From positions 1 through 28,107 of the IMG/VR virus record IMGVR_UViG_3300036944_001199: a DNA stretch of 28,107 bases; one strand, 5' to 3'. Under the pieces are notes generated by a model that saw only the letters and a list, made by a program, of their open reading frames with translations, ran no database searches and had not been told where the DNA came from. This document shows, piece after piece, positions 5,349 to 28,042 of this stretch (its first letter is position 1; each line of letters opens with the position of its first letter). This DNA is from a virus. The position numbers were made by a program, and so were the translations under genes.

Positions 5349-5364
5349 AGTATGCTATCACGCC
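5349..5364 (-). promoter_or_regulatory. Phage promoter motif copy (minus strand, drives inverted neck gene)
   Basis: Reads GGCGTGATAGCATACT on the minus strand, matching the motif at all positions except the second (G for T). The hexamer CATACT is -10-like. Predicted +1 near 5342 gives a 20-base leader that contains AGGAGG before ATG 5322. It is back-to-back with the plus-strand copy at 5366-5381, with one base between. Confidence 0.65.
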
Positions 5365-5365
5365 T

Positions 5366-5381
5366 GTCGTGATGCCAAACT
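5366..5381 (+). promoter_or_regulatory. Phage promoter motif copy (drives tail terminator and sheath)
   Basis: GTCGTGATGCCAAACT, a full match. The hexamer CAAACT follows a TGn extended -10. Predicted +1 is 5388, one base before ATG 5389, so the transcript would be almost leaderless. No SD is present in front of ATG 5389 or the alternative ATG 5398. Confidence 0.7.
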
Positions 5382-5388
5382 TGCTCAT

Positions 5389-6225
5389 ATGATTACAATG
5401 ATTCAGCCTATTGCCAGCGGCAATGCCCTCAGAATATTTCTCAGCCCTCCTGCGGGCTCTTTGCGTTGGAGGGTTCTAAGAAATGGATCGGACTCATTTG
5501 CCAATGAATCTGATCCTAATGCAATTATTGCATATGAAGGGGATGATGAGATATTTGTAGACGTATCGTTTCTGCAAAACGAGGTAATGGCATTTTACCG
5601 GGCATATTATTTCGACGGCACATCATGGACGGCCAGCGCAACTGCTAATGGCACGCCTGTTTCTAATTATGAGGAATTCACCACTGATGTAATGTCACTG
5701 CTGAGATCCAGAATTGAAGCTGGGATGAAGGTTGAAGTCGAGAGGGGAAACATTATAGCGGAAGAGCTCGGTTACGTGCAGGTATATACCGCCCCGCCAT
5801 CTCTTGAGGGATCTCTGCGCTTCCCTTTAATAACAATGCATATGATAAATGAAAACTCTGGCATTCGCGGTATTGGTGAGAATATCAGCGGTGATGAGTT
5901 TGATGCCGTAGGGTTTGACTGGTTAGATTCTGAAGGTTGGATCTCAGACGTTCAAATGACGATTGTTTGCTGGTCATTAAACAGTGACGAGCGTATTGAA
6001 TTAAGAAAAGCCTTACGTAGAGTCATTATTGCCAATCTTCCAGTGCTATCATCCCAAGGCATTGAGCAAGTTAACGTTGGCATGCAGGACGTCGATGCAA
6101 TAAACGGTGAGTATGATGCAAATCTGTATCAAGTGGTTTGCAACTTCTCTTGCATAGCTCCAGTTCGAGTGGGAAGTAAAGTTGCGGCTATATCGGACGT
6201 AACAGTTAATGGCACAGGAAATTGA
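5389..6225 (+). CDS. Putative tail terminator/completion protein with N-terminal beta domain
   Basis: A 278-residue protein. The start ATG 5389 lies one base from the predicted transcription start; ATG 5398 is an in-frame alternative and neither has an SD. Residues 1-90 are an Ig or FN3-like beta segment (LRIFLSPPAGSLRWRVLRNG, MAFYRAYYFDGTSWTASATANG). Residues about 95-260 are the conserved half: a helix (VMSLLRSRIEAGM), a central beta sheet, an ERIELRKALRRVIIANL helix and final strands (NLYQVVCNFSCIAPV), the layout of tail terminators of the gpU/Tc1 type. It caps the tail tube and joins it to the neck. It leads a transcription unit that includes the sheath gene. Confidence 0.6.
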   Translation: MITMIQPIASGNALRIFLSPPAGSLRWRVLRNGSDSFANESDPNAIIAYEGDDEIFVDVSFLQNEVMAFYRAYYFDGTSWTASATANGTPVSNYEEFTTDVMSLLRSRIEAGMKVEVERGNIIAEELGYVQVYTAPPSLEGSLRFPLITMHMINENSGIRGIGENISGDEFDAVGFDWLDSEGWISDVQMTIVCWSLNSDERIELRKALRRVIIANLPVLSSQGIEQVNVGMQDVDAINGEYDANLYQVVCNFSCIAPVRVGSKVAAISDVTVNGTGN

Positions 6226-6227
6226 AA

Positions 6228-6437
6228 ATGAATGCAAAATTAAAAAAGGAACCGCAACAAGTTGAGACTGAAGTAGCTCTCACTTTGCATGATTTTTGTA
6301 CGCGATTATCTACGACAGAAACTAGAGTGGAATTGATCTCTGGTTTTGAGTCAGAAGAGCGCCGCAAAAACCGCCTAAAGGACACCCATTCAGCATTTGA
6401 TGGGCGTTTCAAGGCATTCATCAACCGACCCGCATAA
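6228..6437 (+). CDS. Small conserved-looking protein before the sheath
   Basis: A 69-residue, highly charged protein. ATG 6228 is chosen over an in-frame TTG at 6222 because ACAGGAA (6214-6220) sits at proper distance from the ATG. The sequence is helical (ALTLHDFCTRLSTTETRVELISGF, EERRKNRLKDTHSAFDGRFKAFINRPA) with no membrane segment. It lies 3 bases after the tail terminator gene and 12 before the sheath, so it is surely co-expressed with them. I do not recognise the family; a small tail-assembly factor is possible. Confidence 0.65.
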   Translation: MNAKLKKEPQQVETEVALTLHDFCTRLSTTETRVELISGFESEERRKNRLKDTHSAFDGRFKAFINRPA

Positions 6438-6449
6438 GCGAGGTAAAAA

Positions 6450-8174: not shown

Positions 8175-8189
8175 CCTACAACCAAATAA

Positions 8190-8220
8190 AAAAAAGCGCC
8201 GTATGGCGCTTTTCTTTTTT
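8190..8220 (+). terminator. Intrinsic terminator after the sheath gene
   Basis: AAAAAAGCGCC (8190-8200), loop GTAT, GGCGCTTTTCTTTTTT (8205-8220): a GC-rich stem extended by A-T pairs and a T-rich tail. It separates the sheath unit from the tube unit, whose promoter motif begins 9 bases later. Confidence 0.88.
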
Positions 8221-8228
8221 GTTTCATA

Positions 8229-8244
8229 GTCGTGATGACAACAT
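8229..8244 (+). promoter_or_regulatory. Phage promoter motif copy (drives tail tube)
   Basis: GTCGTGATGACAACAT, a match to the motif with -10-like hexamer CAACAT. Predicted +1 at 8251 gives a 30-base leader with GAGGAAAA upstream of ATG 8281. Placed directly behind the sheath terminator. Confidence 0.7.
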
Positions 8245-8280
8245 TCGTTAGCATGCAAATCGTTTACTCGAGGAAAACAG

Positions 8281-8703
8281 ATGAAAACGAACTTAAAAAC
8301 CCGCACTGGCAACCGAATAGTTGTCGTGCTGGATGGAAAACAGGTCGGGCTTCTCCAATCTGTTCGCTCTAATGATGACTATAGCCCTGAACCTGCTAGT
8401 GGAATTGGCGATATTCACGTTCAAGAACACGTACCTACAATGGCTCGCCACACGCTAAGTGTCAGCGCAATGGTATTAAATAAAGGATCACTTATTTCTG
8501 CTGGCGTGGCTATGGAAAATGGCGATGCAGTGCTGCAGGGCCTTGTTTTTGACTTTGAGATGTTTGATAAAGACGACGGCAAACTGCTGCGTAAATATAT
8601 TGGCTGCTCTTACGCCTCTGGTGACATTGACGTGTCTAAACATGCTATTGTTATGCAAAGCGCCCAGTTTAATGCGTTAGACGTAGCTGGTGCCGGCGTT
8701 TAA
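8281..8703 (+). CDS. Tail tube protein
   Basis: A 140-residue protein immediately after the sheath, beta-rich throughout (NRIVVVLDGKQVGLLQSVRSND, ARHTLSVSAMVLN, LQGLVFDFEMFDK, KHAIVMQSAQFNALDVAGAGV). Size and place fit the small myovirus tube protein, which stacks in rings to form the inner tube that the sheath drives through the envelope. It has its own promoter motif and its own terminator, isolating it as a highly expressed single-gene unit with read-through into the chaperones. No motif unique to tubes is visible, so the call leans on position and size. Confidence 0.82.
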   Translation: MKTNLKTRTGNRIVVVLDGKQVGLLQSVRSNDDYSPEPASGIGDIHVQEHVPTMARHTLSVSAMVLNKGSLISAGVAMENGDAVLQGLVFDFEMFDKDDGKLLRKYIGCSYASGDIDVSKHAIVMQSAQFNALDVAGAGV

Positions 8704-8721
8704 AATTGACTTATTAACTGG

Positions 8722-8752: not shown

Positions 8753-8773
8753 ATTTATTATAAGGTCTGAATT

Positions 8774-9127
8774 ATGCGAGCTAGAAGCGAAAATGATTTT
8801 AATGTCACGGTGGAAGGGGTTGGTAATTTTGTTTTCGGTCGTAGAAAAATGCGAGATGAGATCAATATACAGGTTGAATACGCCTCACTGATCCAAGGAG
8901 TTGAGCCAACTGCATGGCTGCAAACAGTTTGTGGGTGGATCGCGGCATTTAAAGTGCTGATGGTTGCATGCCCCGAAAACTGGGATCTCGAAGAGATGGA
9001 CCCGCTAGATCAGGATACCTACTCCAACATGACGAAAGTCTATGACGCGCTTCGCGACAAGGAGCGGGAGTTTCGAAAAAAACCAGCAGAAACAGGCAAA
9101 GAACAGAGCAAAGAAACAGTATCTTAG
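8774..9127 (+). CDS. Tail assembly chaperone, short form (gpG-like)
   Basis: A 117-residue protein between tube and tape measure, the canonical position of tail-assembly chaperones. The N-terminal half has beta strands (NDFNVTVEGVGNFVFGRR); the middle is a helical region (MRDEINIQVEYASLIQGVEPTAWLQTVCGWIAAFKVLMVACPENWDLEEMDP); the C-terminus is very charged (KEREFRKKPAETGKEQSKE). In other phages such proteins coat the tape measure and recruit tube subunits and are not in the virion. The final charged stretch overlaps the start of a second frame that continues to the tape measure gene (see the slip site and the 9042-9341 entry). Confidence 0.75.
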   Translation: MRARSENDFNVTVEGVGNFVFGRRKMRDEINIQVEYASLIQGVEPTAWLQTVCGWIAAFKVLMVACPENWDLEEMDPLDQDTYSNMTKVYDALRDKEREFRKKPAETGKEQSKETVS

Positions 9128-9341
9128 TTATGAGTTTTGGTTTAGGCAGCACTATAAATTAACTGAAAACGATCCTAGATATCTGGATATGACGCTAGAG
9201 CAAATCATGGAAGATTACTGGTCATATCAATATTTTAACAACCCTAAAATGGTTGAAGAAATAGAAGATGAGGATTTTGATCAGGATGATATATTGAAAT
9301 TGATGGAACAATTCCCCGACGACTGGCAGGAAATGATATGA
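9042..9341 (+). CDS. Tail assembly chaperone frameshift extension (gpT-like)
   Basis: This frame is +1 (equivalently -2) relative to the 8774 gene and has no SD of its own; its ATG at 9042 lies inside the upstream gene. The likely product is a fusion of the first 100 residues of the 8774 protein with 88 residues read from about 9075 to the TGA at 9339-9341, about 188 residues in all. The extension is acidic (DYWSYQYFNNPKMVEEIEDEDFDQDDILKLMEQFPDDWQEMI), as is usual for the T-part. It ends in an ATGA overlap with the tape measure gene. The alternative, separate translation from 9042, is unlikely because of the missing SD. Confidence 0.7.
   Translation: MTRFATRSGSFEKNQQKQAKNRAKKQYLSYEFWFRQHYKLTENDPRYLDMTLEQIMEDYWSYQYFNNPKMVEEIEDEDFDQDDILKLMEQFPDDWQEMI
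9071..9083 (+). other. Probable translational slip site in the chaperone pair
   Basis: TTTCGAAAAAAAC (9071-9083). Two mechanisms fit the required frame. A +1 slip at TTT-C lets the tRNA-Phe move to TTC, with a rare CGA codon waiting, giving GAA next. A -2 slip on the seven-A run lets tRNA-Lys re-pair perfectly. A -1 slip is excluded because the extension frame is not -1. Confidence 0.6.
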
Positions 9342-12280: not shown

Positions 12281-12283
12281 TAA

Positions 12284-13816: not shown

Positions 13817-14649
13817 TGTTACGTCTTGGCGTTGTTGTAGAAACCCACTCAAGGGATAATGCTGTTGATCTCGTCATGACTGACGACGGAGCCAGACTGG
13901 TAGGCGTCCAAATCATGTCACTGGGTGCGAGCAATAGAACTGGCACAGTTGACCTGCCTGAAATTAAAGCAAAGCCTGACAAGTGGGACGTAACCAAAAG
14001 AAATGCTGATGATGAACAGGATTTGCTTGCTATCGTCGGTACGCTAGGCCGCAATCCGATCGTGATGGGGTTTATTTTCCCTCAATTAAATCAGATGCTA
14101 TTTGAGGACGGCAAACTTCGGCTGTATCGTCACCAGTCAGATGTTATGACAACAATTGATGGCGATGGCAATTTTCAGTATGACCACCCAGGCGGCGCTT
14201 TTATTCGAATAGCTGAAGATCCTGATCATGCAACTTTTACTAAGAAAAATGTTGATAAAAGCCTAGCAACAAACAGAAATTCAAATAGAAAAGTGCACGT
14301 TAGAATAGAGTTGGCTGAGCAGATGGTACAGCTGACATTGACCCCTGACGGTGATGCCAGCCTTAAAATAAAACGTAACTTGTTGATTGAAGCGGAAGGT
14401 AAGGCAGACATAAAAGTTACAGGTAACATGACGGCAGAGGTCGGCGGAAATATGTCTGCCACCATTGCAGGCACTACTACAGTGCAGAGCGAAGGGACTG
14501 CCACGATAAATTCAGATGGAGATGTGTTGGTAAACGCAACAAACATTAAGCTAAATAATGGCGCTGGCGTAGTCACAGGGGCTCACATTTGTCAGTACAC
14601 AGGTTCGCCTCACAGCGATTGCAGTAGCACTGTATTTGCGGAGAAATAA
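13816..14649 (+). CDS. Baseplate central spike (gpV/gp45-like)
   Basis: A 277-residue protein starting with a TAATG overlap with the hub gene and an AGGAGA SD. Residues 1-100 fit the OB-fold that binds the hub (RLGVVVETHSRDNAVDLVMTDDGARLVGVQIMSLG, then LGRNPIVMGFIFPQLNQ). Residues about 160-255 are short repetitive strands (IKRNLLIEAEGKADIKVTGNMTAEVGGNMSATIAGTTTVQSEGTATINSDGDVLVNATNIKLNN), a triple-stranded beta-helix. The end, GAHICQYTGSPHSDCSSTVFAEK, has spaced His and Cys residues where P2- and Mu-type spikes bind a metal ion at the tip. The protein pierces the outer membrane as a trimer. Recognition is strong. Confidence 0.9.
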   Translation: MLRLGVVVETHSRDNAVDLVMTDDGARLVGVQIMSLGASNRTGTVDLPEIKAKPDKWDVTKRNADDEQDLLAIVGTLGRNPIVMGFIFPQLNQMLFEDGKLRLYRHQSDVMTTIDGDGNFQYDHPGGAFIRIAEDPDHATFTKKNVDKSLATNRNSNRKVHVRIELAEQMVQLTLTPDGDASLKIKRNLLIEAEGKADIKVTGNMTAEVGGNMSATIAGTTTVQSEGTATINSDGDVLVNATNIKLNNGAGVVTGAHICQYTGSPHSDCSSTVFAEK

Positions 14650-14651: not shown

Positions 14652-14849
14652 ATGGCTCTTAACGCCTCAACACTAGAAGCACTAATTATACAAAAACTAA
14701 ACGCTGCAGGGATTGTGACTATTGGTCAGCACGCAAAAGCACAAGTTATGGCAAAGGCTATAGCAGAGGCGGTTGTTGAACATATTAAGGCTGAAGCAAA
14801 AGCCAACGTGACCGGCGGAGACTCATCTGGACAATGGCCAATTATATAG
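14652..14849 (+). CDS. Small baseplate-region protein
   Basis: A 65-residue Ala-rich protein with SD GGAGA before ATG 14652. It is a predicted helix (LEALIIQKLNAAGIVTIGQHAKAQVMAKAIAEAVVEHIKAEAKANV) with a flexible Gly/Ser tail ending GQWPII. A small gene of this kind follows the spike in many myovirus clusters and may be a spike-associated or assembly factor, but its role is not known from the sequence. It ends one base before a copy of the promoter motif. Confidence 0.68.
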   Translation: MALNASTLEALIIQKLNAAGIVTIGQHAKAQVMAKAIAEAVVEHIKAEAKANVTGGDSSGQWPII

Positions 14850-14865
14850 GTCGTGATGCCAGAAT
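14850..14865 (+). promoter_or_regulatory. Phage promoter motif copy (drives 14872 gene, leaderless)
   Basis: GTCGTGATGCCAGAAT, a full match, with hexamer CAGAAT close to the sigma70 -10 consensus. Predicted +1 is 14872, the A of the ATG start itself. There is no SD in front of this ATG. Confidence 0.7.
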
Positions 14866-14871: not shown

Positions 14872-16053
14872 ATGCAGAATAAAAACCCACCTAGAGATCA
14901 GAGAGCAGGAGTTCGTCCGATTGCATTTGTTTTGCAAGAGGGCGGGCGCTTTAACTCGCCTGTAACATTGAAGATCAGGCCTGAGGATCTTAATCGAGTT
15001 GAACCTTCCAGAGTTTCGATTACCCAAACTTTGGGGAGAGATGTTGGTGGATGGGTAGATAATTTTGGTGAGGGGCTGCCATCGGTCACTCTATCTGGAC
15101 ATACTGGCTGGCGACAAACATATAGTGGCGGCGTCGACGGGGCCACAGCTTTTGAGCAATTAAATAAATTGGTTGCTCATGATTACCACAAAGCAAAGCA
15201 GCGAGCTATTGATGCAGGGATAGATCCATCCACTATTAAATTGTTATTTGTCGATATGTTAGATAATTTCACATGGTCAGTTGTGCCCAATCAGTTTGTG
15301 CTAAGGCGCTCTAAATCTCGACCTTTATTATTTCAATATCAAATAACCTTGCAGGCCATTGATACTAATATTGACGTGCAATTTAAGGCCGTTCCGTTTA
15401 AAGGGAATGTTCCTGCAGGACTAACTGCGCTAAAGGGAGCTATAGCTACACTAGAGAGCCAAGCCGAGACAATACAAGGCATTATAGCTCAAGCCGTTTC
15501 ATACAAAGACTCTCTTTTGGCTCCAATAGGTAAGACAGTAAAAGATTTTGCCGATTTATCAACTCAGGTTTTTAATATCGTAAATGATACTGTTAAAGAG
15601 GCTCAAGACGGAATATATGGTACCGCAAACTCTTTGATTGAAATAGCATCTGATCTAGCTACTGTTGGCGTAAATATTAATAGAACCATTTCATCTGTTG
15701 CAGGCCTGCCTGCAAGTGTGCAGGCTGCAGTAAGTCGTGTAGCTAGCGCATATAACGAAGTTTTTTGTATTTTCCAAAATTCATTACGCCCTAGAAAAAC
15801 ATTTCAAGATTATGATGGATTATTTGGAGCCTCTAACTGTTCCTCTACCAGTGGAGGCAGGGCGGGCAGCGCGTATTCCAGTCAGAATGCCTTTGCAATG
15901 ATGCAGCTTAATAACGGACCTGTGACAGTTAGTAGCGGAGCATATTCTAGTGTTGCCGCAATCAAGAATGCTGACCCTGTATTATCGCCAATGTCTCTTG
16001 AGGAAGTTGATCGTAACCTTAAAGTTATCAACTCAGGAGTGGAAATAAATTGA
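14872..16053 (+). CDS. Baseplate protein, hub-associated tube-like domain with coiled coils
   Basis: A 393-residue protein starting at ATG 14872 with no SD; the predicted mRNA starts at the same base. Residues about 15-170 are beta-rich, including VTLKIRPEDLNRVEPSRVSITQTLGRDVGGWVDNFGEGLPSVTLSGHTGWR, a pattern seen in XkdP-type and tube-initiator-like baseplate proteins. Residues about 190-300 are helical, with heptad-like TLESQAETIQGIIAQAVSYKD and VFNIVNDTVKEAQDGIYGTANSLIEIASDLATVG. It lies between spike and the gp53/gp25-like gene and probably belongs to the hub or links hub to wedge. Exact family not certain. Confidence 0.62.
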   Translation: MQNKNPPRDQRAGVRPIAFVLQEGGRFNSPVTLKIRPEDLNRVEPSRVSITQTLGRDVGGWVDNFGEGLPSVTLSGHTGWRQTYSGGVDGATAFEQLNKLVAHDYHKAKQRAIDAGIDPSTIKLLFVDMLDNFTWSVVPNQFVLRRSKSRPLLFQYQITLQAIDTNIDVQFKAVPFKGNVPAGLTALKGAIATLESQAETIQGIIAQAVSYKDSLLAPIGKTVKDFADLSTQVFNIVNDTVKEAQDGIYGTANSLIEIASDLATVGVNINRTISSVAGLPASVQAAVSRVASAYNEVFCIFQNSLRPRKTFQDYDGLFGASNCSSTSGGRAGSAYSSQNAFAMMQLNNGPVTVSSGAYSSVAAIKNADPVLSPMSLEEVDRNLKVINSGVEIN

Positions 16054-16667
16054 ATGAATTTGAACGCTTAGAGCCGTCATACAGGCTTGCTGAGACGTAT
16101 TTTGGTGACGACCTTCAAGCTGTTTCTGCTAGAGAGCTGGGTGACGCTAATCGATGGGCGGAATTGGTGTGGCTGAATAATTTAAGGCATCCATATCTAA
16201 CTGATGACGCTCTATTAGCAAATGAATCAGTTAGGCTTAATGGAACGTTAATAAAAATTCCAGCGCCAGTTGGAGTTTACACTGATGATGCTAGTCGTGG
16301 TCAAGTGTATGAAAAAGACTGCATTCTAACTAATAAACTGCTTTCAGTTAACGCTGGCGGTGATCTTGCTGTGGCTTCTGGTGTGAAGAACCTGACTCAG
16401 CAGCTGAAGCACAGAATAGACACTCCTAAAGGGCAGGCTCGACGCCACCCTGATTACGGTTGCTTGGTGTGGCGCCTAAAGGGATCTGTCACTGGGCCAA
16501 CGGCTGAAACCCTTGGCAGCGAATACGTAAAATCTACACTCATTGCTGATTATAGAGTTTCATCTGTTGTTAGTAGCTCTGCAATAACAAATGGTGACGC
16601 AATCATGATTACAGCAAAAGTTGAGTCAATCGAAGGGGCTGGCATAGATATTAGCAATCTGTCGTGA
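16050..16667 (+). CDS. Baseplate wedge protein, gp53-like (LysM) plus gp25-like fusion
   Basis: A 205-residue protein starting at TTG 16050, which overlaps the TGA of the previous gene; AGGAG (16035-16039) precedes it. Residues about 8-75 read RLAETYFGDDLQAVSARELGDANRWAELVWLNNLRHPYLTDD-LKIPAPVG style, a LysM/gp53-like module with the typical W..L..LN..r.PY. Residues about 95-205 match gp25/gpW-like wedge proteins: LTQQLKHRIDTPKGQARRHPDYGCLVWRLKGSVTG, then a helix and a final beta pair. In T4 these are two separate wedge proteins. The stop codon TGA lies inside the next promoter motif. Confidence 0.75.
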   Translation: MNEFERLEPSYRLAETYFGDDLQAVSARELGDANRWAELVWLNNLRHPYLTDDALLANESVRLNGTLIKIPAPVGVYTDDASRGQVYEKDCILTNKLLSVNAGGDLAVASGVKNLTQQLKHRIDTPKGQARRHPDYGCLVWRLKGSVTGPTAETLGSEYVKSTLIADYRVSSVVSSSAITNGDAIMITAKVESIEGAGIDISNLS

Positions 16668-16676
16668 TGACAAACT
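16661..16676 (+). promoter_or_regulatory. Phage promoter motif copy (drives gpJ-like gene)
   Basis: GTCGTGATGACAAACT, a full match that contains the TGA stop (16665-16667) of the previous gene. Predicted +1 near 16683, giving a 32-base leader to TTG 16715. Confidence 0.68.
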
Positions 16677-16714: not shown

Positions 16715-17815
16715 TTGGCTTTCCAGATAAAAGACTTTGCCAGTATAACGGCATCAATGATAAACCATGCGAGAGGCGTAACAAAGCGCATCTCTGACTG
16801 GCTGCCCGGCTCTGTTTCGCGAACGCTGGTGGAGGCGCCTGCTGTTGAAATAGAAGAGTTGTATCTCCAAATATTCACAGGCTTAAGGGAAGCTATTCCT
16901 GTGGCCGTTTTCAAGTCTTTTAAGTTTGAAAATTTACCCGCTAAATATGCTAGAGGATTTGTCACTGTACAGTCTCAAGATGCACTTACTGAAGATAAAT
17001 TGATTTTAGTAGATACCGAATTCAGAACTGATGATGGGCGGGTTTATCTTAGTACCGAATTAAAAACAATAGTAGCAGGCCAAACGACTGTAGTTGTTCC
17101 AGTGTCCGCGTCTGCCTCAGGATCTGCATACAATGCGTCGGCAGGATCGATTAATAGCTGTCCATCATTAGGAGCAGGGTATTTAATAAGCAATTCTGCA
17201 ATCTCAACAGGATCAGACGTTGAAACTGACAATGAAAAAGAGGCTAGATTTGCCGAATATGTAGAGTCATTATCCAGAGGCACGAATGCCGCATGTCTTT
17301 TTGCAGCTAAATCTGCGGTGATCAGTGATGATTTAGGTAATGCTCTTGAATACGTTACTAGAACAGGCAGTATTGAAACACCAGGATATCTAAAAATCTT
17401 TATTTACTCATCTGCAGGGGTGCCGTCAACCGGACTCATATCTAAAGCGCAATCAATAATAAATGGCAGCAGAGACGTTGACACACAAAAAATAATACCT
17501 GGTTATCGATCCGGTGGGATCAGGGTTGATATACTGCCAATGGTTGAGCGAGCAGTATCGCTATCTGCTCAGGTAGAAATGCTGACAGGATACGAGTTGA
17601 CTGGCGAGGTTATCCAATCGTTGACTGATGTTTACTCGACAACGCTATCAAACACTAATGCTGGCGCCGTTCTTTATCTTGGCACGCTAGAGACTGAGCT
17701 GCTTAGCGTTACGGGGTTAAAAAAAGTGGTCTTAGGGATGGACTCAAATATAATTTGTTCTCCATTTGAGGCGCTTAAGCCCGGCGTGATCTCTATTACT
17801 GAGCTGCCAATATGA
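16715..17815 (+). CDS. Baseplate J-like wedge protein (gp47-like)
   Basis: A 366-residue protein starting at TTG 16715 with AGGA (16701-16704) about 10 bases upstream; the first residues AFQIKDFASITASMINHARGVTKRISDWLPGSVSRTLVEAPAVEIEELYLQIFTGLREAI are the standard N-terminus of baseplate J proteins, which fixes the start. Middle strands (ASGSAYNASAGSINSCPSLGAGYLISNSAISTGSDVETDNEKEARFAEYVESLSRGT) follow the J family closely: ...AG.i......g......N......G.d.EsDee.r.R......s...G. The C-terminal third is the beta region with LSAQVEMLTGYELTGEV. It forms the wedge core that surrounds the hub. An ATGA overlap couples it to the next gene. Confidence 0.9.
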   Translation: MAFQIKDFASITASMINHARGVTKRISDWLPGSVSRTLVEAPAVEIEELYLQIFTGLREAIPVAVFKSFKFENLPAKYARGFVTVQSQDALTEDKLILVDTEFRTDDGRVYLSTELKTIVAGQTTVVVPVSASASGSAYNASAGSINSCPSLGAGYLISNSAISTGSDVETDNEKEARFAEYVESLSRGTNAACLFAAKSAVISDDLGNALEYVTRTGSIETPGYLKIFIYSSAGVPSTGLISKAQSIINGSRDVDTQKIIPGYRSGGIRVDILPMVERAVSLSAQVEMLTGYELTGEVIQSLTDVYSTTLSNTNAGAVLYLGTLETELLSVTGLKKVVLGMDSNIICSPFEALKPGVISITELPI

Positions 17816-18936: not shown

Positions 18937-18952
18937 GTCGTGATGCCAGACT
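18937..18952 (+). promoter_or_regulatory. Phage promoter motif copy (drives 18969 gene)
   Basis: GTCGTGATGCCAGACT, a full match. Predicted +1 near 18959 gives a leader of only about 10 bases, beginning at the SD AGGGGG (18958-18963) before ATG 18969. This spacing is the tightest test of the proposed initiation point. Confidence 0.68.
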
Positions 18953-18968: not shown

Positions 18969-19451
18969 ATGGCCATTTTAACTAATCCGGGACGAAGCGG
19001 AATAGCTCAGCTAGTAAAGGATCAAAATCTTCACTTAGCATGGGGCTCAGGCAATCCAGACTGGGATGCAACTCCAGCGTTGCCGGACGTAAATGCCTCA
19101 TCATTAATTGCGGAAATTGGGCGACGAAAATCGTCTGATGTACGATTTTGCATACCAGACCCGTTAGGTTCAATAGTCGTTCCAAATGGCACATTTTCAC
19201 TGTCTGACGTACCGACAAAATATTTGTATATTCGGTTCTCCTTTGCCGCAGATGACTCGCCAGAAGGTCAAATTAGAGAATTGGCGGTGTTTTGGGGAAC
19301 TGTACCAAAAGTGACTGTGCCGGAAGGGCAAATGTACCTACTTCCTGCTGATGTGCTGGACTTTGGGAATATAATTAGCATAGAGCATGTGGACAAAATT
19401 GAACGTTCGCCGGCTATTCGTCAGCAGTTTGAGATAATCATACAGTTTTAA
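18969..19451 (+). CDS. Baseplate/tail-fibre junction protein
   Basis: A 160-residue protein with a strong AGGGGG SD. It opens with AILTNPGRSGIAQLVKDQNLHLAWGSGNPDWDATPALPDVNASSLIAEIGRRKSSDVRFCIPD, a pattern I know from conserved proteins in myovirus baseplate clusters that precede fibre genes. The remainder is beta-rich with an acidic loop (PDPLGSIVVPNGTFSLSDVPTKYLYIRFSF). It probably sits between wedge and fibres. Exact function unknown; no enzyme motif or signal peptide is seen. It has its own promoter motif, so it may be made in greater amount than the wedge proteins. Confidence 0.65.
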   Translation: MAILTNPGRSGIAQLVKDQNLHLAWGSGNPDWDATPALPDVNASSLIAEIGRRKSSDVRFCIPDPLGSIVVPNGTFSLSDVPTKYLYIRFSFAADDSPEGQIRELAVFWGTVPKVTVPEGQMYLLPADVLDFGNIISIEHVDKIERSPAIRQQFEIIIQF

Positions 19452-19466: not shown

Positions 19467-21395
19467 ATGACGCTTCCTGGTTATTACAATAGATTCAATC
19501 AAGATGACAATTTTGATGAGCATCTATTTAGAGCTGGATATGTATTGCAAAGTGCTGAGATGAATGAGATCCAGCGAGCGGCCGCTTACAGGCATAGCCA
19601 GCTCGGTAATGCATTATTTAAAGACGGCGATATTGTTCGCGACGCCCGCATTATTGTTGACTCTGACACCGGCGTCGTCACATGCGAATCGGGAGCTATA
19701 TGGCTAAGCGGAGCTGTTAGGGGTGTGCCTACAGGCAGCCTAACCATAACAATGATAGGTACTGAAGTGGTCGGGATTTACCTTGCCACAACAGAAGTGA
19801 CCGAAGTTCAGGATCCGTCATTGTTAGACCCCGCTGCTGAAACCAGAAACTATTCTGAGCCGGGTGCTGGCAGGCTGAAAGTAGAACCTAGATGGGGCCT
19901 GCAGGGAGAGGCTGTTGATGCATTTTTCCCTATTTATTATGTCGACGATGGTGTGCCTAGAGGTAAAGAGCCTCCGCCCCAGTTGGATAGCGTTACTCAG
20001 GCGATCGCACGATATGACAGGGACAGCGCTGGATCTAATTATGTTGTTTCAGGGCTGTCTGTTGCCCTGCTGCCTGATGATGGTGGAATGCAGGTTTATA
20101 ACGTTATTTCTGGAAGAGCTCGAGTAAACGGGTTCCCAATTCAGCTGAATAATTCTGTCCGTCTTAAATACAATGCAACGCCTGATCTAAGGCTTATCAG
20201 TAACGAACCACGAACATCAACTTCTGCTGGAACTCAGAGAATCAATGTCGATCGTCCGCCTATCGCAAGCGTTATCCAAGTTTCTATAACAAAGGAAACT
20301 ACAGATACGATCGTGCATGGCGGATTCTCCGGCGCTCAAGACCCTATACCAAATCCTTCAGTCATTTCGATTGAGGAAGTCACACAGGGCGGTACTACTT
20401 ACACTCTTGGCGTTGATTATCAATTAACCGCCGGAAAGGTTGACTGGTCATTAGCTGGCGCAGAACCGGCGCCGGGATCGACGTATTCTGTCAGGTATCG
20501 ACACATCACCAATGTGACACCTACTGATATTGATGATACTGGATTTTCTATAGTTGGTGCGGTGGTCGGAACTCTAGTGTTAACCACATACGAACTAAAG
20601 TTGCCAAGAATTGACCGATTATGTCTTGATGAAGAAGGTAAATTTGTTTGGGTTCAAGGTGTTTCAACTGACTACGACCCTGTAAGGCCTTCGGTCCCTA
20701 ACAATTTAATCGCATTAGCTCAAATCACCCAATCGTGGACCGATACTAGGGCAGTCATTAATGATGGCGTTAGAACTGTAGCAATGTCAGAAATTGAGCG
20801 GCTATTCTACAGAATGGATGCAATTACAGACCTAGTTGCTCAGCAAAAACTCTCTAGCGACATTAATCAGCGAGAGTCCGCGGCGAGAAAGGGGCTATTT
20901 GTCGATCCTTTTCTTGATGATTTGCAAAGGGATCAGGGTATCGTTCAAACCGCCGCCGTAGCTAACGGAATATTGACTCTTCCTGTTAATGGCGAGGCAT
21001 TGAATCCATCGATCTCACTTAGTAATGCTCAAACGTGCGCCTACACACTAGAGCCGTTATTGACTCAAGAGTTACGTACAACCAGCATGAAAGTTAACCC
21101 TTACATGGCGTTTGGGCTGCTTCCTGCTGGCGTGCAATTGAACCCGTCTGTGGACAGATGGACAGATGTCACAACAGAGTGGTTATCACCTATAACTCGC
21201 AGATTTGTGGTGGGTTGGGGGAATGCTAGCTCAGTTACCACTAAGACTAGCACTGAGTTGGTAAAAACTACTGATGTTGAAATTCAGACACTTAGACAGA
21301 TAGACGTTAATTTCACATTAACAGGTTTCGGGATTGGCGAGACATTAAATAACGTTATTTTTGACGGCATATCGGTGCCGGCCAATCCGATTTAA
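19467..21395 (+). CDS. DUF4815-like baseplate/tail protein
   Basis: A 642-residue protein with SD AAGGGAAAG before ATG 19467. The start (YYNRFNQDDNFDEHLFRAGYVLQSAEMNEIQRAAAYRHSQLGNALFKDGDIVRDARIIVDSDTGVVTCESGAIWLSGAVRGVP) is the DUF4815 hallmark: D.nf....F..G...Q..E.NE.Q..... ..g..lf.dGd...g. Family members sit at the baseplate rim of large myoviruses and anchor fibres. The middle has FN3-like strands, and the region near 430-470 (MSEIERLFYRMDAITDLVAQQKLSSDINQRESAARKGLFVDPFLDDLQRDQG) is a helix followed by a conserved DPF phrase. Function beyond a structural one is unknown. Confidence 0.78.
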   Translation: MTLPGYYNRFNQDDNFDEHLFRAGYVLQSAEMNEIQRAAAYRHSQLGNALFKDGDIVRDARIIVDSDTGVVTCESGAIWLSGAVRGVPTGSLTITMIGTEVVGIYLATTEVTEVQDPSLLDPAAETRNYSEPGAGRLKVEPRWGLQGEAVDAFFPIYYVDDGVPRGKEPPPQLDSVTQAIARYDRDSAGSNYVVSGLSVALLPDDGGMQVYNVISGRARVNGFPIQLNNSVRLKYNATPDLRLISNEPRTSTSAGTQRINVDRPPIASVIQVSITKETTDTIVHGGFSGAQDPIPNPSVISIEEVTQGGTTYTLGVDYQLTAGKVDWSLAGAEPAPGSTYSVRYRHITNVTPTDIDDTGFSIVGAVVGTLVLTTYELKLPRIDRLCLDEEGKFVWVQGVSTDYDPVRPSVPNNLIALAQITQSWTDTRAVINDGVRTVAMSEIERLFYRMDAITDLVAQQKLSSDINQRESAARKGLFVDPFLDDLQRDQGIVQTAAVANGILTLPVNGEALNPSISLSNAQTCAYTLEPLLTQELRTTSMKVNPYMAFGLLPAGVQLNPSVDRWTDVTTEWLSPITRRFVVGWGNASSVTTKTSTELVKTTDVEIQTLRQIDVNFTLTGFGIGETLNNVIFDGISVPANPI

Positions 21396-21405
21396 GGAGT
21401 TTTAA

Positions 21406-22620: not shown

Positions 22621-23252
22621 TGATAGACAACAGGACTCAACACCTAGACCTGCCTCTTCCAGATGTAAATAATCAACTGGAAGATGATGTTGTCAGATTG
22701 CAAGAGTCATTTAATGCAATAGACACTCACGCGCAAAGCACGGACTCTAGTATAGAGTCTATTAATGAAGAACTTAATGAGCTTGGTAATGCATCATCAA
22801 AGACAGTGACGGCCTCACCGCTAGATCAGTCGGCAGGGAAATTACTGCAAACTGGTGATGGCGGACTGATGGGCTCTGCAATAGATGGATTTGCAAACGT
22901 AACTATTGATGGCAATGTAAGAAACGCTTTGCCGGGAATTATTTTATCTTTTTCAGGAACAGAAATAGAATGTACCGCGGCAAACTTGCCATCGTTAGGC
23001 GGCGCTGACACAACATCAAGGACATGGATAGTAAAATCATCCGGATCGCCATTATTGCTGCTTATTGAAGCTGTTGAAATACTTGGTTTAACTGGTGGCG
23101 CTGGACGTTCTTTTTCATCCGTAAAGCAGGATGCATCATGGTCTCCGTGGATTGAAAGTTTTAACGGTAGCAATAAACCTTTAATAGTAGATGTGATCGG
23201 TCTAACAGGTCGATTAGATGAAATTGAAACATACGCATTAGCGGGGCTGTAA
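22620..23252 (+). CDS. Short tail fibre with coiled coil and pyocin-knob-like end
   Basis: A 210-residue protein starting at ATG 22620 (TAATG overlap). Residues about 15-60 (NQLEDDVVRLQESFNAIDTHAQSTDSSIESINEELNELG) are a coiled-coil trimer region. Residues about 110-185 end in RTWIVKSSGSPLLLLIEAVEILGLTGGAGRSFSSVKQDASWSPWIESFNG, which resembles the pyocin-knob module of Pseudomonas-type and phage fibres (W..W with a conserved variable face). The pattern suggests a trimeric fibre. The last 20 residues form another short helix (LIVDVIGLTGRLDEIETYA). It is coupled to the next gene through TAATG at 23250-23254. Confidence 0.65.
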   Translation: MIDNRTQHLDLPLPDVNNQLEDDVVRLQESFNAIDTHAQSTDSSIESINEELNELGNASSKTVTASPLDQSAGKLLQTGDGGLMGSAIDGFANVTIDGNVRNALPGIILSFSGTEIECTAANLPSLGGADTTSRTWIVKSSGSPLLLLIEAVEILGLTGGAGRSFSSVKQDASWSPWIESFNGSNKPLIVDVIGLTGRLDEIETYALAGL

Positions 23253-24514
23253 TGACTGCGATAACCACAAATTTAAAAACTCAGGTTCAAGCACAAATTG
23301 ATGCAGCTGATAGCTCTACAAGCTTAAAAGATCTTCTTGTTATCAGAAAATCTGCTGAAGGGCTAAGGTGCGATGAGTCTAACTTAGACACGTTGATGAG
23401 CGCAGCTATAGCGTCAATGAGCCCAAGCACTGCGCTAAAGGATTTATTGCTAGGTAATAAGGCCAGTGGTCTGCCGGGGCCTGTTAGCGTTCCTATTGGC
23501 GGATCTACTCCACTGCTGGCATCATTCCCGAGTCTTGTATCTATTGACGGTGCTTCATACCTTAAAAGCGGATATTATTTAACCACTGGATTTGATGAGT
23601 CATTAATGCCGTATATGAGCGGCGGAAGAGTTTGGGCAAATAACCCAGCCAACATTATTGGTTCAAATACTATTCAGGCCATAAAACATGATAACGGATT
23701 ATGGGTTGTTGCTGGCGATAACGGAATGCTATCAACATCTCCTGACGGAGTGACATGGACACCTAGAACGTCAGGCTTTGGTACGACGCGCATAAAGGAT
23801 GTGTCTTTTGGTAATGGTCTATGGGTTGCTGTTGGCGATAACGGAATGCTATCAACATCTCCTGACGGAGTGACATGGACACCTAGAACGTCAGGCTTTG
23901 GTACGGAGATCATTTCTGCGGTTGCTTACGCTAATAACTTGTGGGTTGCCTCCGGTACTAACGGAAAGCTGTCAACATCTCCTGACGGAGTGACATGGAC
24001 ACCTAGAACGTCAGGCGCTAGTACAAATTTAGGTGCTATTGTTTACGGGAAAGGGGTTTGGGTTGTCGCAGTACAAACAGGCGCTCCAATTATTTCTTAT
24101 GACGGAATAACTTGGTCGGCGGCTTATGTTTCTGGTACAACGACAAGCTTTACCACCGTGGCGTTTAACGGAGAAATATTTGTTGGTTGCTCAGGAACCA
24201 ACATTGGTTATTCTGTAGATGGTTGGTATTGGGCGCCTGTTGCACCAAATATACCAGTTGCCGCAGTAAATAAAGTAATTTGGAATAAAAAAGATTTGTT
24301 TGTTTTTACGTCATCTAGTGGAGGAATGCCTATTTATACGTGCGATGCTAATTTAAAAAATTTCAAATCAAGGGCGAACACTTCTTCATCTGTTGCAATA
24401 GGTACAGATGGTCTAGTTTGCATTGCAGGCATTAGTGCAGGCACTTACCGAAAAAGTGAAGCAGTATTATGTTTAGAAAGCGAAAATAAAAATGATTTCT
24501 TGAGGATCTTATAA
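23252..24514 (+). CDS. Tail fibre/receptor-binding protein with seven propeller-like repeats
   Basis: A 420-residue protein starting at ATG 23252. After a helical N-terminus containing a duplicated T-(S/A)-LKDLL phrase (residues ~25 and ~67), residues about 130-420 hold roughly seven units of about 40 residues. Units 1-3 share the phrase LSTSPDGVTWTPRTSG; units 4-7 diverge (IISYDGITWSAAYV, IGYSVDGWYWAPVAPNIPV, and so on). The Ser-x-Asp-Gly-x-x-Trp core resembles BNR/sialidase-type blades, and seven blades would make a closed propeller. Such domains often bind receptor sugars. Three repeats are almost identical in DNA (see repeat entry). Receptor binding is an inference from fibre position and fold. 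Confidence 0.7.
   Translation: MTAITTNLKTQVQAQIDAADSSTSLKDLLVIRKSAEGLRCDESNLDTLMSAAIASMSPSTALKDLLLGNKASGLPGPVSVPIGGSTPLLASFPSLVSIDGASYLKSGYYLTTGFDESLMPYMSGGRVWANNPANIIGSNTIQAIKHDNGLWVVAGDNGMLSTSPDGVTWTPRTSGFGTTRIKDVSFGNGLWVAVGDNGMLSTSPDGVTWTPRTSGFGTEIISAVAYANNLWVASGTNGKLSTSPDGVTWTPRTSGASTNLGAIVYGKGVWVVAVQTGAPIISYDGITWSAAYVSGTTTSFTTVAFNGEIFVGCSGTNIGYSVDGWYWAPVAPNIPVAAVNKVIWNKKDLFVFTSSSGGMPIYTCDANLKNFKSRANTSSSVAIGTDGLVCIAGISAGTYRKSEAVLCLESENKNDFLRIL
23701..24024 (+). repeat. Three near-identical 120-bp tandem coding repeats
   Basis: Units begin at 23701, 23821 and 23941, exactly 120 bases apart (40 codons). A run of about 50 bases, including TCAACATCTCCTGACGGAGT and the following 30 or more bases, is identical in all three. 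Units 1 and 2 are identical over most of 84 bases. Near-identity at silent sites means recent duplication or conversion. Confidence 0.9.
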
Positions 24515-24924: not shown

Positions 24925-24926
24925 AC

Positions 24927-25346: not shown

Positions 25347-25377
25347 AACCAAGACGCAGACGTAGCCGTCAATGACA

Positions 25378-25393
25378 GTCGTGATGACAAAAT
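25378..25393 (+). promoter_or_regulatory. Phage promoter motif copy (drives lysis cassette)
   Basis: GTCGTGATGACAAAAT, a full match; hexamer CAAAAT. Predicted +1 near 25400 lies at the far end of the 5' arm of the hairpin below, so transcripts from here would lack nearly all of that arm. Leader about 22 bases to ATG 25422. Confidence 0.7.
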
Positions 25394-25420
25394 GCCCTTA
25401 ATGACAATTGAGGGCATTTT
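25389..25420 (+). promoter_or_regulatory. Hairpin that sequesters the holin Shine-Dalgarno
   Basis: A 13-bp stem (25389-25401 with 25408-25420, one G-T pair) and a 6-nt loop. The 3' arm contains the SD GAGGG (25410-25414) of the holin, 7 bases before ATG 25422. In read-through mRNA the SD is buried; its TTTT tail also permits some termination. Confidence 0.7.
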
Positions 25421-25421
25421 C

Positions 25422-25742
25422 ATGAGTAACTTTGAAAGTTTGAGCAAACGATTAAAAGCGTTAATCGATAAATCCGCGCTGATCCTGATCATTCCAGCGC
25501 TAATTGCAATGTATTTCATAGATCCAGCTATGGCAAAAACGCTAGTAGACTGGACTGTTTTCGCACCAATTATGGCGGGGATTGCTGTAGTTGTATCTCG
25601 CATCGTATTTCATAGAATCGAGCTAACCAAGCTGATTGTATTAACCGAAAAAGGCAATATGGCGGCAGCCGTTCTAGCATCCGCTATAGTCTTGTTTGTT
25701 GCTATCGTTTTTATGGCGTTAGTCATGTGGGTTAAGGCGTAG
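25422..25742 (+). CDS. Putative holin
   Basis: A 106-residue protein. ATG 25422 is chosen over the in-frame ATG 25392 because the latter is inside the promoter/hairpin and has no SD, while GAGGG precedes 25422. There are three predicted membrane segments, about residues 18-34 (SALILIIPALIAMYFID), 45-62 (VFAPIMAGIAVVVSRIVF) and 80-103 (MAAAVLASAIVLFVAIVFMALVMW), with Lys/Arg loops between. Size, topology and place directly before an exported endolysin fit a holin, which times lysis by depolarising the inner membrane. Not matched to a named holin family. Confidence 0.75.
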   Translation: MSNFESLSKRLKALIDKSALILIIPALIAMYFIDPAMAKTLVDWTVFAPIMAGIAVVVSRIVFHRIELTKLIVLTEKGNMAAAVLASAIVLFVAIVFMALVMWVKA

Positions 25743-25744
25743 TC

Positions 25745-26643: not shown

Positions 26644-27098
26644 GAATCCCCGCCGAAAAAAGCATGAATGCCATGGTAATTGCCAGCTGCTACTTAGTGG
26701 CCCTTTATTTGTCTGGATTTATTATGTGGTGGATGGTGCTTGTAGGCGGGGATCCAATTACAGTTAAAGAGGCATACCTGACTAATGAATCAAACCAGAT
26801 AACTCAAATTATGCATGCAGGGGATCCGTTTGCAGTTAGAGGCGTCATTTGCTCTTCTGAGGACATTGGTGTAGAGGTCTATCCCTCTCTTGATGGAAAA
26901 GATAAGGTCAGGTACCCGCTGAGTAGTACAGTTTATTTAGCTAAAAAAGGTTGTTACAAAGCCGCCATGGGCGGGATCGTTCCATCTGTTCCTGCTGGGG
27001 AATATTCCCTGAATGTAACAATAAAATATCAAAATAACTTAGTCGGACGTGACGGCACATCGATGCTGCCATCATTGCCGCTAAAGGTGGTCAAATGA
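26640..27098 (+). CDS. Membrane-anchored periplasmic protein of unknown role
   Basis: A 152-residue protein in an ATGA overlap with the previous gene. One N-terminal membrane segment (VIASCYLVALYLSGFIMWWMVLVGG, about residues 13-37) is followed by a periplasmic beta-rich domain with two cysteines (Cys70 and about Cys104) that may form a disulfide. Its place between XhlA-like and Rz suggests a role in lysis control, for example an antiholin-like inhibitor or an exclusion protein. No family recognised. Confidence 0.66.
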   Translation: MRIPAEKSMNAMVIASCYLVALYLSGFIMWWMVLVGGDPITVKEAYLTNESNQITQIMHAGDPFAVRGVICSSEDIGVEVYPSLDGKDKVRYPLSSTVYLAKKGCYKAAMGGIVPSVPAGEYSLNVTIKYQNNLVGRDGTSMLPSLPLKVVK

Positions 27099-27505
27099 AT
27101 GCAATACCAATGCAATACAAAATATTACTTGCGGTAATAGCGTTGCTAACAGCTTTCTCTGGTGGTTTTAAATTTGGTGATACGGTTGGCTCTGCAAGAA
27201 CTGAAGTGGTCTGCTCATCGGCCAAGCAAGGCCTTAATGAAAAAATTGAAAGCCTTAACACTTCCGTGCTCAGCTTGGCTAATTACAGTTCAGAGCTAAA
27301 GTTAAAAATAGTTGAGTATAATGGGGCTATTGACGCTGAGAAAGCCAGAGCAGATGCCGCCGAAGGAGCAAAAGCACAGGCTGAAAAATTACTAGCTCAA
27401 TTGAAATCTCAGAGCGACAGCAGGATAGGTAAGTTAAATAGTGACACTAAATCAGAAGTAACGTGCGGGCCAGTTTTGAAACGGTATTGGGATCTCAGAC
27501 AATGA
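27095..27505 (+). CDS. Rz: Inner-membrane spanin subunit (Rz-like)
   Basis: A 136-residue protein in an ATGA overlap with the previous gene. One N-terminal membrane segment (ILLAVIALLTAFSGGFKFG), then a long coiled coil (about 40-115, ending KAQAEKLLAQLKSQSDSRIGKL) with two Cys, as in i-spanins. It reaches across the periplasm to the outer-membrane lipoprotein encoded next, and the pair fuses inner and outer membranes at lysis. Assignment is by architecture and neighbour; Rz proteins have poor sequence conservation. Confidence 0.8.
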   Translation: MNAIPMQYKILLAVIALLTAFSGGFKFGDTVGSARTEVVCSSAKQGLNEKIESLNTSVLSLANYSSELKLKIVEYNGAIDAEKARADAAEGAKAQAEKLLAQLKSQSDSRIGKLNSDTKSEVTCGPVLKRYWDLRQ

Positions 27506-27774
27506 AATTGTATTTAATTGTGATGTTTATTTTGCTTACCGGCTGCCAAGCTAACAGCGCCAAGCCTGAGCCTGAGATCGTGACGGTTAAAGTGATGGTA
27601 AAGGAAGCCTGCATTGAATCGACGCCAATTCGTCCAGAATTTAAAACTGGTACAGGGCCTTATCCTGGCGATAAGGCGGCCGCAGCAATTTTAGCAGAAG
27701 ATTTTGAAATGGCGGAGCAATACGCTAATGCTTGGGAAATGGCTGTAGTTGGATGCATAAAGAAAAAGCCTTAA
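27502..27774 (+). CDS. Rz1: Outer-membrane spanin lipoprotein (Rz1-like)
   Basis: A 90-residue protein. ATG 27502 is preferred to an in-frame upstream ATG at 27463, because it leads directly into a lipoprotein signal (MKLYLIVMFILLTGC, lipobox LTGC, lipidated Cys15) and overlaps the Rz stop in ATGA. Proline- and charge-rich behind the lipobox (QANSAKPEPEIVTV) with two further Cys. It is unusually not nested fully inside Rz but overlaps it by only 4 bases, so this is an overlapping rather than embedded spanin pair. Partner of the 27095 gene; target is the outer-membrane inner leaflet. Confidence 0.82.
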   Translation: MKLYLIVMFILLTGCQANSAKPEPEIVTVKVMVKEACIESTPIRPEFKTGTGPYPGDKAAAAILAEDFEMAEQYANAWEMAVVGCIKKKP

Positions 27775-27978
27775 TTATTCCTCTTTTGATTTGCATGTTA
27801 CGCATAATTTGTACCCATATTGACGCCTGACTAATGGCATGCTTTCATCACATTTGATGCAGAGCTCGGGGCCAAATTCAGCATCTTTTTGACTAAATTT
27901 AACGACGGGGTTTCTGGCTCGATTGTTGAATTCCCACTCTTTTAGCTCTACATCTTGAGCTAGATTTTCATTAGACAT
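27775..27978 (-). CDS. TraR/DksA-family C4 zinc-finger protein
   Basis: A 67-residue minus-strand protein with SD TGAGGAAA before ATG 27978. Residues 40-62 form CIKCDESMPLVRRQYGYKLCVTC, a C-x2-C-x15-C-x2-C finger with the conserved RR before the second pair, as in TraR, a DksA relative carried by plasmids and phages that enters the RNA polymerase secondary channel and alters promoter choice. The N-terminal 39 residues are polar and acidic (ENLAQDVELKEWEFNN), consistent with TraR's short helix. It abuts Rz1 end to end. Upstream are a hairpin and a promoter motif. It may redirect host polymerase late in infection; inference. Confidence 0.82.
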   Translation of the reverse strand: MSNENLAQDVELKEWEFNNRARNPVVKFSQKDAEFGPELCIKCDESMPLVRRQYGYKLCVTCKSKEE

Positions 27979-27992
27979 AATTTCCTCAAAAT

Positions 27993-28017
27993 AAAAAAGA
28001 AGCCCTGATTAGGGCTT
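27993..28017. terminator. Intrinsic terminator/leader hairpin before the TraR-like gene
   Basis: On the minus strand AAGCCCT (28017-28011), loop AATC, AGGGCTT (28006-28000), then CTTTTTT. It may end transcripts of the upstream minus-strand gene and lies within the predicted leader of the TraR-like gene. On the plus strand the same hairpin, with a weaker T-tail, may end lysis transcripts. Confidence 0.72.
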
Positions 28018-28026
28018 GATTTAAAA

Positions 28027-28042
28027 ATAATGCTATCACGAC
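28027..28042 (-). promoter_or_regulatory. Phage promoter motif copy (minus strand, drives TraR-like gene)
   Basis: GTCGTGATAGCATTAT on the minus strand, with hexamer CATTAT and TAG in place of TGn. Predicted +1 near 28020; the leader of about 42 bases starts with the hairpin at 27993-28017. It overlaps by one base the stop codon of the gene on its upstream side. Confidence 0.65.

Follow-up and report, generated by a model that had tools for sequence, protein, structure and literature searches.

Motif copies in the window and the genes that they face

The window, that is, the whole stretch of 28,107 nucleotides analysed here, is the virion and lysis part of a temperate myovirus lineage of about 90 kb, which comprises Aeromonas phage ST4, Pseudomonas phages Dolphis, Jeremy and Touem01, Yersinia phage fHe-Yen8-01, Enterobacter phage phiT5282EW, Bordetella phage PHB04 and many IMG/VR contigs. 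ST4, Dolphis, Jeremy, PHB04 and Touem01 are laboratory isolates. No match was obtained when the GenBank phages were compared with the window by megablast. The first-pass annotation had reported eight copies of a 16-bp motif in this region, and all eight were found with the coordinates and strands given, each one lying between genes or starting at or overlapping the upstream stop codon, and each one facing the next gene on its strand. The CGTGA block was indeed invariant among these copies, the six TGn and two TAG variants and the constant final T were as described, and the proposed absence of a -35 consensus held, since the 30 bases upstream of the motif contained at most 0.19 bit per position.

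Two predicted promoters stand between divergent genes, one copy per strand, an arrangement also found in Dolphis, G018, L024 and L031. The first one (GGCGTGATAGCATACT, 5349-5364, minus strand) has a predicted +1 near 5342 and some 20 nt of leader, in which AGGAGG occurs, ahead of the gene at 4495-5322 (minus strand). The second one (GTCGTGATGCCAAACT, 5366-5381, plus strand) would start transcription at 5388/5389, where the ATG of the head-tail adaptor gene lies, so that its mRNA would be leaderless; leaderless starts are annotated for the orthologues in ST4, fHe-Yen8-01, phiT5282EW and Touem01. Also on the plus strand, the predicted promoter GTCGTGATGACAACAT (8229-8244), located just downstream of an intrinsic terminator that was identified from the sequence after the sheath gene (8192-8220, plus strand), would start a leadered transcript near 8251, with GAGG and then the ATG of the major tail protein gene at 8281. 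The copy GTCGTGATGCCAGAAT (14850-14865, plus strand) comes right after the stop codon of the open reading frame 14652-14849, and its predicted +1 at 14872 is the A of the ATG of a phrog_1011 gene, again a putative leaderless start. Two further plus-strand copies are predicted to give leadered transcripts: GTCGTGATGACAAACT (16661-16676), which overlaps the stop codon of 16050-16667 and precedes the baseplate J gene (TTG at 16715), and GTCGTGATGCCAGACT (18937-18952), with a leader of about 10 nt containing GGGGG before the ATG at 18969.

The remaining two predicted promoters are associated with hairpins. The plus-strand copy GTCGTGATGACAAAAT (25378-25393), whose predicted +1 at 25400/25401 adjoins an ATG (25401) in the frame of the holin gene (another in-frame ATG is at 25422), overlaps a hairpin followed by a T-run (25390-25420, plus strand). 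The folding energy of this hairpin was -20.1 kcal/mol in a read-through RNA versus -1.2 kcal/mol in an RNA starting at 25400. The minus-strand copy GTCGTGATAGCATTAT (28027-28042) has a predicted +1 near 28020 and is separated by a hairpin and then a T-run (28000-28017, minus strand) from the gene at 27775-27978 (minus strand), which encodes a 67-aa TraR/DksA-like zinc-finger protein (phrog_54, E 7.6e-6).

The abundance of the motif in the window far exceeds chance. The pattern CGTGATNNCANANT gave six matches versus none for the reversed control, and the looser pattern [GT][TG]CGTGA[TC]NNNANNNT gave nine versus 0.25 in Markov shuffles. The ninth match, at position 1392, falls within the head gene and does not begin with GTC; it probably arose by chance.

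Distribution of the motif and its distance to the AUG

The sequence GTCGTGA[T/C]-NNN-A-NNN-T was found repeatedly at late-gene junctions across the lineage. A survey of 26 genomes or segments gave 159 matches to the strict motif versus a mean of 3.3 with 60 permutations of the 7-mer, and when an ATG at +6/+7 was included there were 81 matches versus a mean of 0.07 (maximum 1) in the permuted controls. The comparison of coding with intergenic frequencies, which the first-pass annotation had put forward as a check, was carried out with 11 genomes or segments and showed that the motif is depleted in genes: 21 of 111 strict sites were located well within ORFs of 100 aa or more, versus 165 of 205 sites of the permuted motifs. 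About one fifth of the strict sites thus lie deep within long ORFs, and these were counted against a promoter function. In the whole of IMG/VR the motif occurred in 115 stretches versus two with the control pattern, and a scan of 85,000 bacterial and archaeal genomes gave 44 scattered matches, about the number expected by chance, a few of them resembling phage contigs. The largest motif-free stretch spans the integrase/replication/early block in most genomes, with weak statistics for each genome.

The distance between the motif and the ATG was examined in 140 distinct sites, where the offset was 6 nt in 45, 7 nt in 20 and 8 nt in five. An ATG was therefore located 6-7 nt downstream in 65 of the 140 sites, and GTG or TTG was never found at that distance; the conservation of the motif, its fixed spacing and the AUG-only rule are shown at the level of sequence. 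PHB04 and Touem01, which were added later, also fitted the spacing rule (11 and 13 sites, respectively). When the conserved A and T are read as -11 and -7, the +1 falls on the AUG or one base before it, implying that about half of the promoters should, as judged from this spacing, give leaderless mRNAs. The placement of the +1 at the AUG in roughly half of the sites, and of some sites on terminators, had been overlooked in the first-pass annotation. In six GenBank phages compared by hand, the predicted leaderless AUG was the start annotated by the submitters in 18 of 29 cases and differed from it in the other 11; in fHe-Yen8-01 and phiT5282EW, one mismatched AUG opens the two-codon frame AUG-UUU-UGA.

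At many of the non-leaderless sites a Shine-Dalgarno (SD) sequence precedes the next start, suggesting that many promoters not placed at an AUG may yield short SD-bearing leaders. Terminator-type hairpins were found at 10 of 64 of these sites versus 1.1% of random places, an overlap that is evident in the sequences themselves. At some junctions, transcription reading through from upstream would fold the hairpin of a terminator overlapped by the promoter, and RNA begun at that promoter would be without the left arm of the hairpin, so that the right arm, in many cases GAGGG, would be available as SD.

A -10-like block with an A and a T emerged even when it was not part of the selection. With sites selected only as GTCGTGA-N9-N6/7-ATG, A(-11), T(-7) and A/C(-8) were each present in 98-100%, and a pyrimidine was found at -1 in 87-95%. 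The claim that the right half of the motif is an extended -10 was only partly sustained: the A....T block stood, and the TG did not hold as a general rule, because C is commoner than T at this position in the relatives (C at -15 in 63-68% of the leaderless sites). The sites do not conform to the sigma70 extended -10 (TGn plus a TATAAT-like hexamer), given that position -12 is also mostly C (65-77%). The invariant block is GTCGTGA, and the label "extended -10" is not quite right.

Probable promoter class, related systems and candidate specificity factors

We consider, with a probability of about 0.8, that the 16-mer is the promoter core for late genes across the lineage, used by the host RNA polymerase together with a phage factor. 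This reading, based on sequence comparison, relies on conserved synteny, strand agreement, the -10-like A....T block, the pyrimidine at -1, the fixed AUG distance, the SD where this distance is longer and the near restriction to one lineage. Comparative evidence favours the phage-specific promoter class proposed in the first-pass annotation over the other readings; in the absence of mapped 5' ends, promoter identity and start position are inferred. GTCGTGA would lie at about -22 to -16, replacing the -35 element, and CANN(A/C)T would be the -10 element, with A at -11, T at -7 and an unusual C at -12. Initiation is inferred 7 nt past the conserved T, on a purine preceded by a pyrimidine. These promoters would drive virion, lysis and accessory genes, and their late timing is inferred from gene function alone. 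The redirection of the host RNA polymerase to the motif by a phage factor is likewise an inference.

The late promoters of P1, activated by Lpa (gp10) and dependent on host SspA, are among the closest known systems. P1 is also a temperate contractile-tailed phage of about 90 kb, and in both P1 and the lineage a conserved box stands just upstream of the -10, without a -35 element, at late operons. The P1 -22 box AAGTNACTT has GTGA in common with GTCGTGA, and LP26 and LPpmgL are also arranged back to back. However, GTGA stands 4 bp further from the -10 A in P1, and the P1 late promoters inspected precede leaders without an AUG at +1. The P1 box with its -10 (AAGTNACTTNNNNNANNNT) had no matches in 16 lineage records, and the GTCGTGA motif was not found in P1. 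A search for an Lpa homologue among the 995 proteins encoded by the window and by nine relatives gave no phmmer match and only chance-level blastp matches; Lpa relatives are confined to P1-like and D6 phages. The lineage promoter resembles the Lpa class, but its box, spacing and activator differ.

Transcripts of Thermus phage P23-45 are largely leaderless. Its middle and late promoters belong to an extended -10 class used when gp39 disfavours -35 recognition (PMC7403470). The host is of another phylum, and a plain extended -10 needs no box such as the invariant 7-bp GTCGTGA. In the sigma appropriation of T4 by AsiA/MotA, a phage activator box stands in for the -35 (PMC7403470). The lineage motif would also have an activator box in place of that element. 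The MotA box is near -30, unlike the lineage box, which touches the -10. The Ogr and Delta proteins of P2 are small phage zinc-finger activators of late genes, with sites near -55. Their zinc finger (PF04606) was not detected in any of the 16 lineage records, and the controls did respond.

Concerning the phage factor, the option of a phage-encoded sigma found no support, as neither region 2 (PF04542) nor region 4 (PF08281) gave anything over the cut-off; a diverged phage sigma is not excluded. The search for a single-subunit (T7-like) RNA polymerase (PF00940) gave 0 of 16 records, with the positive control likewise silent. Among the mechanisms suggested in the first-pass annotation, a phage activator or a sigma-remodelling factor remains. 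The TraR/DksA-like protein was set aside because DksA/TraR proteins act in the secondary channel of the polymerase without DNA specificity and its own gene is behind a motif copy.

The best candidates are the adjacent zinc-finger proteins Zn174 and Zn122, found only in phages of the lineage. Zn174 is encoded by 25 of 26 large motif-bearing contigs, the motif is present in all 23 Zn174-bearing records, and Alfacinha1 and 45 kb of HJ05, with related tail genes, lack both. The window comes from a fragmentary phage sequence that lacks the Zn174 region. Zn174, the motif and the structural genes are co-inherited, so this co-occurrence is no proof that the motif is read by Zn174. No strict copy occurs in Mec66, which retains homologues of both proteins; the use of Mec66 as a contrast to pinpoint the regulator failed, as degenerate motifs occur at orthologous junctions. 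Zn174 (model pLDDT 87) had no fold match in the PDB and no known DNA-binding domain, its one confident viral match being an unnamed 90-aa entry, and the model of Zn122 was poor (pLDDT 71.5). That one or both proteins are the phage factor is a tentative proposal which we would not yet back. We regard as rather doubtful the complete scheme, in which the tandem Zn174/Zn122, for which neither relatives nor a fold match are known, would be a new type of specificity factor that directs the host RNA polymerase to promoters made up of GTCGTGA and a -10 without a -35, with a large share of the virion genes expressed from leaderless mRNAs and terminator-overlap cassettes insulating each late unit.

We lean slightly towards a real promoter with a different factor, which could be a phage protein akin to sigma that has escaped recognition, some other DNA-binding protein of the phage or a factor of the host. 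This possibility challenges no more of the explanation than the part on Zn174/Zn122. The lack of a direct link between these proteins and DNA, the many uncharacterised genes of the lineage phages and the C at -12, atypical for sigma70, speak for it, against the silent sigma searches and an HMM core-gene search in which Zn174 was the only one of the near-universal core genes to have no role in structure, replication or DNA modification. Phages of Yersinia, Enterobacter, Pseudomonas, Aeromonas and Bordetella all share an identical motif, which makes a host factor unlikely.

Non-promoter readings and significance

The constant AUG spacing at about half of the sites could also suggest an RNA-level translation element, in which GUCGUGA...U, placed six bases ahead of the AUG, stands in for the SD or is bound by a phage regulator of translation. 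We give this very little credence: the other half of the sites, approximately, are off that spacing, many with an SD further down, such an element would not be expected to show a -10-like A/T block or a pyrimidine at -1, and the opposite-strand pairs between divergent genes and the terminator overlap fit initiation at the DNA level. Equally improbable is a repressor, silencer or other architectural intergenic site, for although small HTH proteins occur in the lineage phages and the stoperators of mycobacteriophage L5 are also repeated, asymmetric, oriented and mostly intergenic, stoperators would not hold the 6-7 nt AUG distance, the pyrimidine at -1 or the A(-11)/T(-7) pair.

Leaderless mRNAs in Proteobacteria are usually regarded as rare exceptions. 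With the motif read as a late promoter, a whole phage lineage seems to build them into late expression through promoter position. If this is true, several annotated starts, placed too far downstream by gene callers, would be corrected (the head-tail adaptor of Dolphis would start at 14320, not at 14482), the motif would allow the late regulons of many uncultured phage contigs to be predicted, and the finding would point to a protein, possibly of a new kind, that redirects the polymerase.

Distribution of the motif in the lineage

The eight copies of the 16-bp motif that the first-pass annotation had reported before late genes were all present at their positions, and [GT][TG]CGTGA[TC]NNNANNNT matched the window 9 times versus 0.25 in Markov shuffles. 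The window, a virus record of 28,107 bp, encodes, in order, the major head protein, head/neck proteins, sheath, tail tube, tape-measure/transglycosylase, baseplate, fibres, holin, endolysin and a TraR/DksA-like protein, and this order was kept across relatives of mostly ~85-97-kb. A sheath query gave 28 loci in IMG/VR, the gene at 19467 led to the GenBank phages ST4, Dolphis, Jeremy, fHe-Yen8-01, Mecenats66 and phiT5282EW, and Zn174, a zinc-finger protein of the lineage, added Touem01 and PHB04; ST4, Dolphis, PHB04 and Touem01 have annotated integrases.

Orthologous genes were preceded by the same motif in phages whose hosts ranged from enterobacteria to Bordetella and whose GC contents ranged from 43 to 69%. 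GTCGTGA[TC]NNNANNNT occurred 159 times in 26 genomes or segments, while sixty permutations of GTCGTGA gave a mean of 3.3 and a maximum of 14. The proposed comparison of intergenic and coding hits, run on 11 genomes or segments, upheld the motif, as only 19% of the strict sites there lay deep within long ORFs versus 80% for permuted motifs. Extended through the ATG, the motif was found in 115 stretches in all IMG/VR versus 2 for a control with two letters swapped, and across bacterial and archaeal genomes totalling 257 billion bases its 44 matches were near the chance level. Late timing was inferred from gene content only, without transcript data. No published description of the motif was found in the open-licence literature, where PMC9503643, the single paper comparing phages of the lineage, leaves promoters unmentioned.

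Alphaproteobacterial contigs L241/L260 (Mesorhizobium MAG contig, 92,981 bp) and L271/L277 (Mesorhizobium soli) bore two copies each; they probably belong to the lineage, as phages or prophages of new hosts. A lone reversed gene among the window head genes (4495-5322, minus strand), kept in place and orientation in relatives, has its own copy, back to back with that of the next gene. Elsewhere in the window, overlapping ORFs at 8774-9127 and 9042-9341 (plus strand) match successive stretches, positions 32-126 and 116-208, of phrog_25000, a single family of tail assembly chaperones, probably representing a programmed frameshift, and a putative fibre gene (23252-24514) contains three 120-nt tandem repeats (23689-24048, plus strand), the encoded repeats including LSTSPDGVTWTPRTSG.

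Inferred promoter geometry and predicted leaderless starts

In 140 distinct sites, the ATG lay exactly 6 nt after the motif in 45, 7 nt in 20 and 8 nt in 5, with background counts at other offsets and no GTG or TTG at 6 or 7 nt. Proteobacterial leaderless initiation depends on a 5'-terminal AUG, so this exclusive use of ATG fits the requirement of a leaderless mRNA. When sites were picked only by GTCGTGA, distance and ATG, leaving the intervening bases free, the A five positions after GTCGTGA and the T ending the motif were each 98-100% conserved, and a pyrimidine preceded the ATG in 87-95%. Judged from sequence, such features typify a -10 element (A-11, T-7) and a pyrimidine/purine start site; setting the motif T at -7 places the predicted +1 on the first base of the ATG or on the base just before it. 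On leaderless initiation, PMC5312081 cites Brock et al. 2008.

Window sites 5366 and 14850 are predicted to be leaderless and 25378 almost leaderless; leaders follow the five others, and in most of these an SD can be recognised. By hand comparison in six GenBank phages, the predicted leaderless ATG was the annotated start in 18 of 29 cases (7 of 8 in Touem01), and some mismatches look like annotation errors: the head-tail adaptor of Dolphis reaches orthologue length (277 aa) only from the leaderless ATG. In Dolphis (MT711888), leaderless ATGs at 14320 and 23688 yield orthologue lengths, and the annotated starts, 14482 and 23748, probably lie too far downstream. Ahead of the prohead protease of fHe-Yen8-01 (L059, 3748) and phiT5282EW (31009, minus strand), the leaderless ATG opens a two-codon ORF, AUG UUU UGA, with the real start 22 nt farther downstream; translational coupling is possible.

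Overlap with terminator-type hairpins

A GC-rich hairpin with a T-rich tail began near the motif end at 10 of the 64 sites lacking an ATG at 5-8 nt, versus 1.1% of random positions. Examples were drawn from fHe-Yen8-01, phiT5282EW, Dolphis and the window: the left arm covers about -6 to +3, the T-run reaches as far as the start codon, and most have the SD on the right arm. Folding energies at window site 25378 were -20.1 for the read-through RNA versus -1.2 kcal/mol for the promoter-initiated RNA, and at three other sites -13.1/-2.3, -14.8/-1.3 and -18.5/-5.3 kcal/mol. The hairpin would probably serve to terminate or silence transcription running in from the unit upstream while sparing the local promoter. 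This logic does not explain site 28027, because its hairpin starts after the predicted +1.

Candidate factors reading the motif

A core-gene analysis of ten genomes left only one near-universal protein with no role in structure, replication or DNA modification, Zn174 (~175-aa, several Cys pairs; Dolphis 66689-67213). After it comes Zn122, a second zinc-ribbon-like protein (Dolphis 67210-67578); the two share an identical set of nine GenBank phage records and occur in none besides. Zn174 was encoded in 25 of 26 large motif-bearing IMG/VR contigs, and all 23 Zn174-bearing records tested had the motif, with almost every copy on a single strand; three motif-bearing Zn174 fragments, all short, lacked the sheath gene. 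The window's own phage is a fragment without the Zn174 region. The predicted structure of Zn174 has good confidence (pLDDT 87), and no resemblance to solved structures was found. We tentatively give about one chance in three that Zn174 and/or Zn122 is the factor reading the motif; the co-occurrence of Zn174 with the motif may reflect shared descent. The TraR/DksA-like protein, set aside as that factor, could itself reprogramme host RNA polymerase; this 67-aa zinc protein (27775-27978, minus strand) lies under a motif copy and adjoins the integrase in relatives. The earlier suggestion of a phage-encoded sigma factor found no support, no sigma-factor domain scoring over the cut-off.

The closest known system is P1, whose late promoters carry a '-22 box' just upstream of the -10, read with Lpa (record annotation; PMC8198154). 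Since box sequence, spacing and protein all differ, the inferred lineage promoter is P1-like in its working but not a member of that system. Among systems in which a phage protein that binds sigma governs extended -10 late promoters, P23-45 comes closest (PMC7403470). Mecenats66 (OL614104) has Zn174/Zn122 homologues but only degenerate motif copies, GTCGTGATGGTTTAAT, ATCGTGATGGGATAAT and GTAGTGATAATAAAAT, at orthologous junctions near 39560, 46183 and 64878, with a more AT-rich -10; judging from these copies, this branch may be undergoing a drift in promoter specificity.
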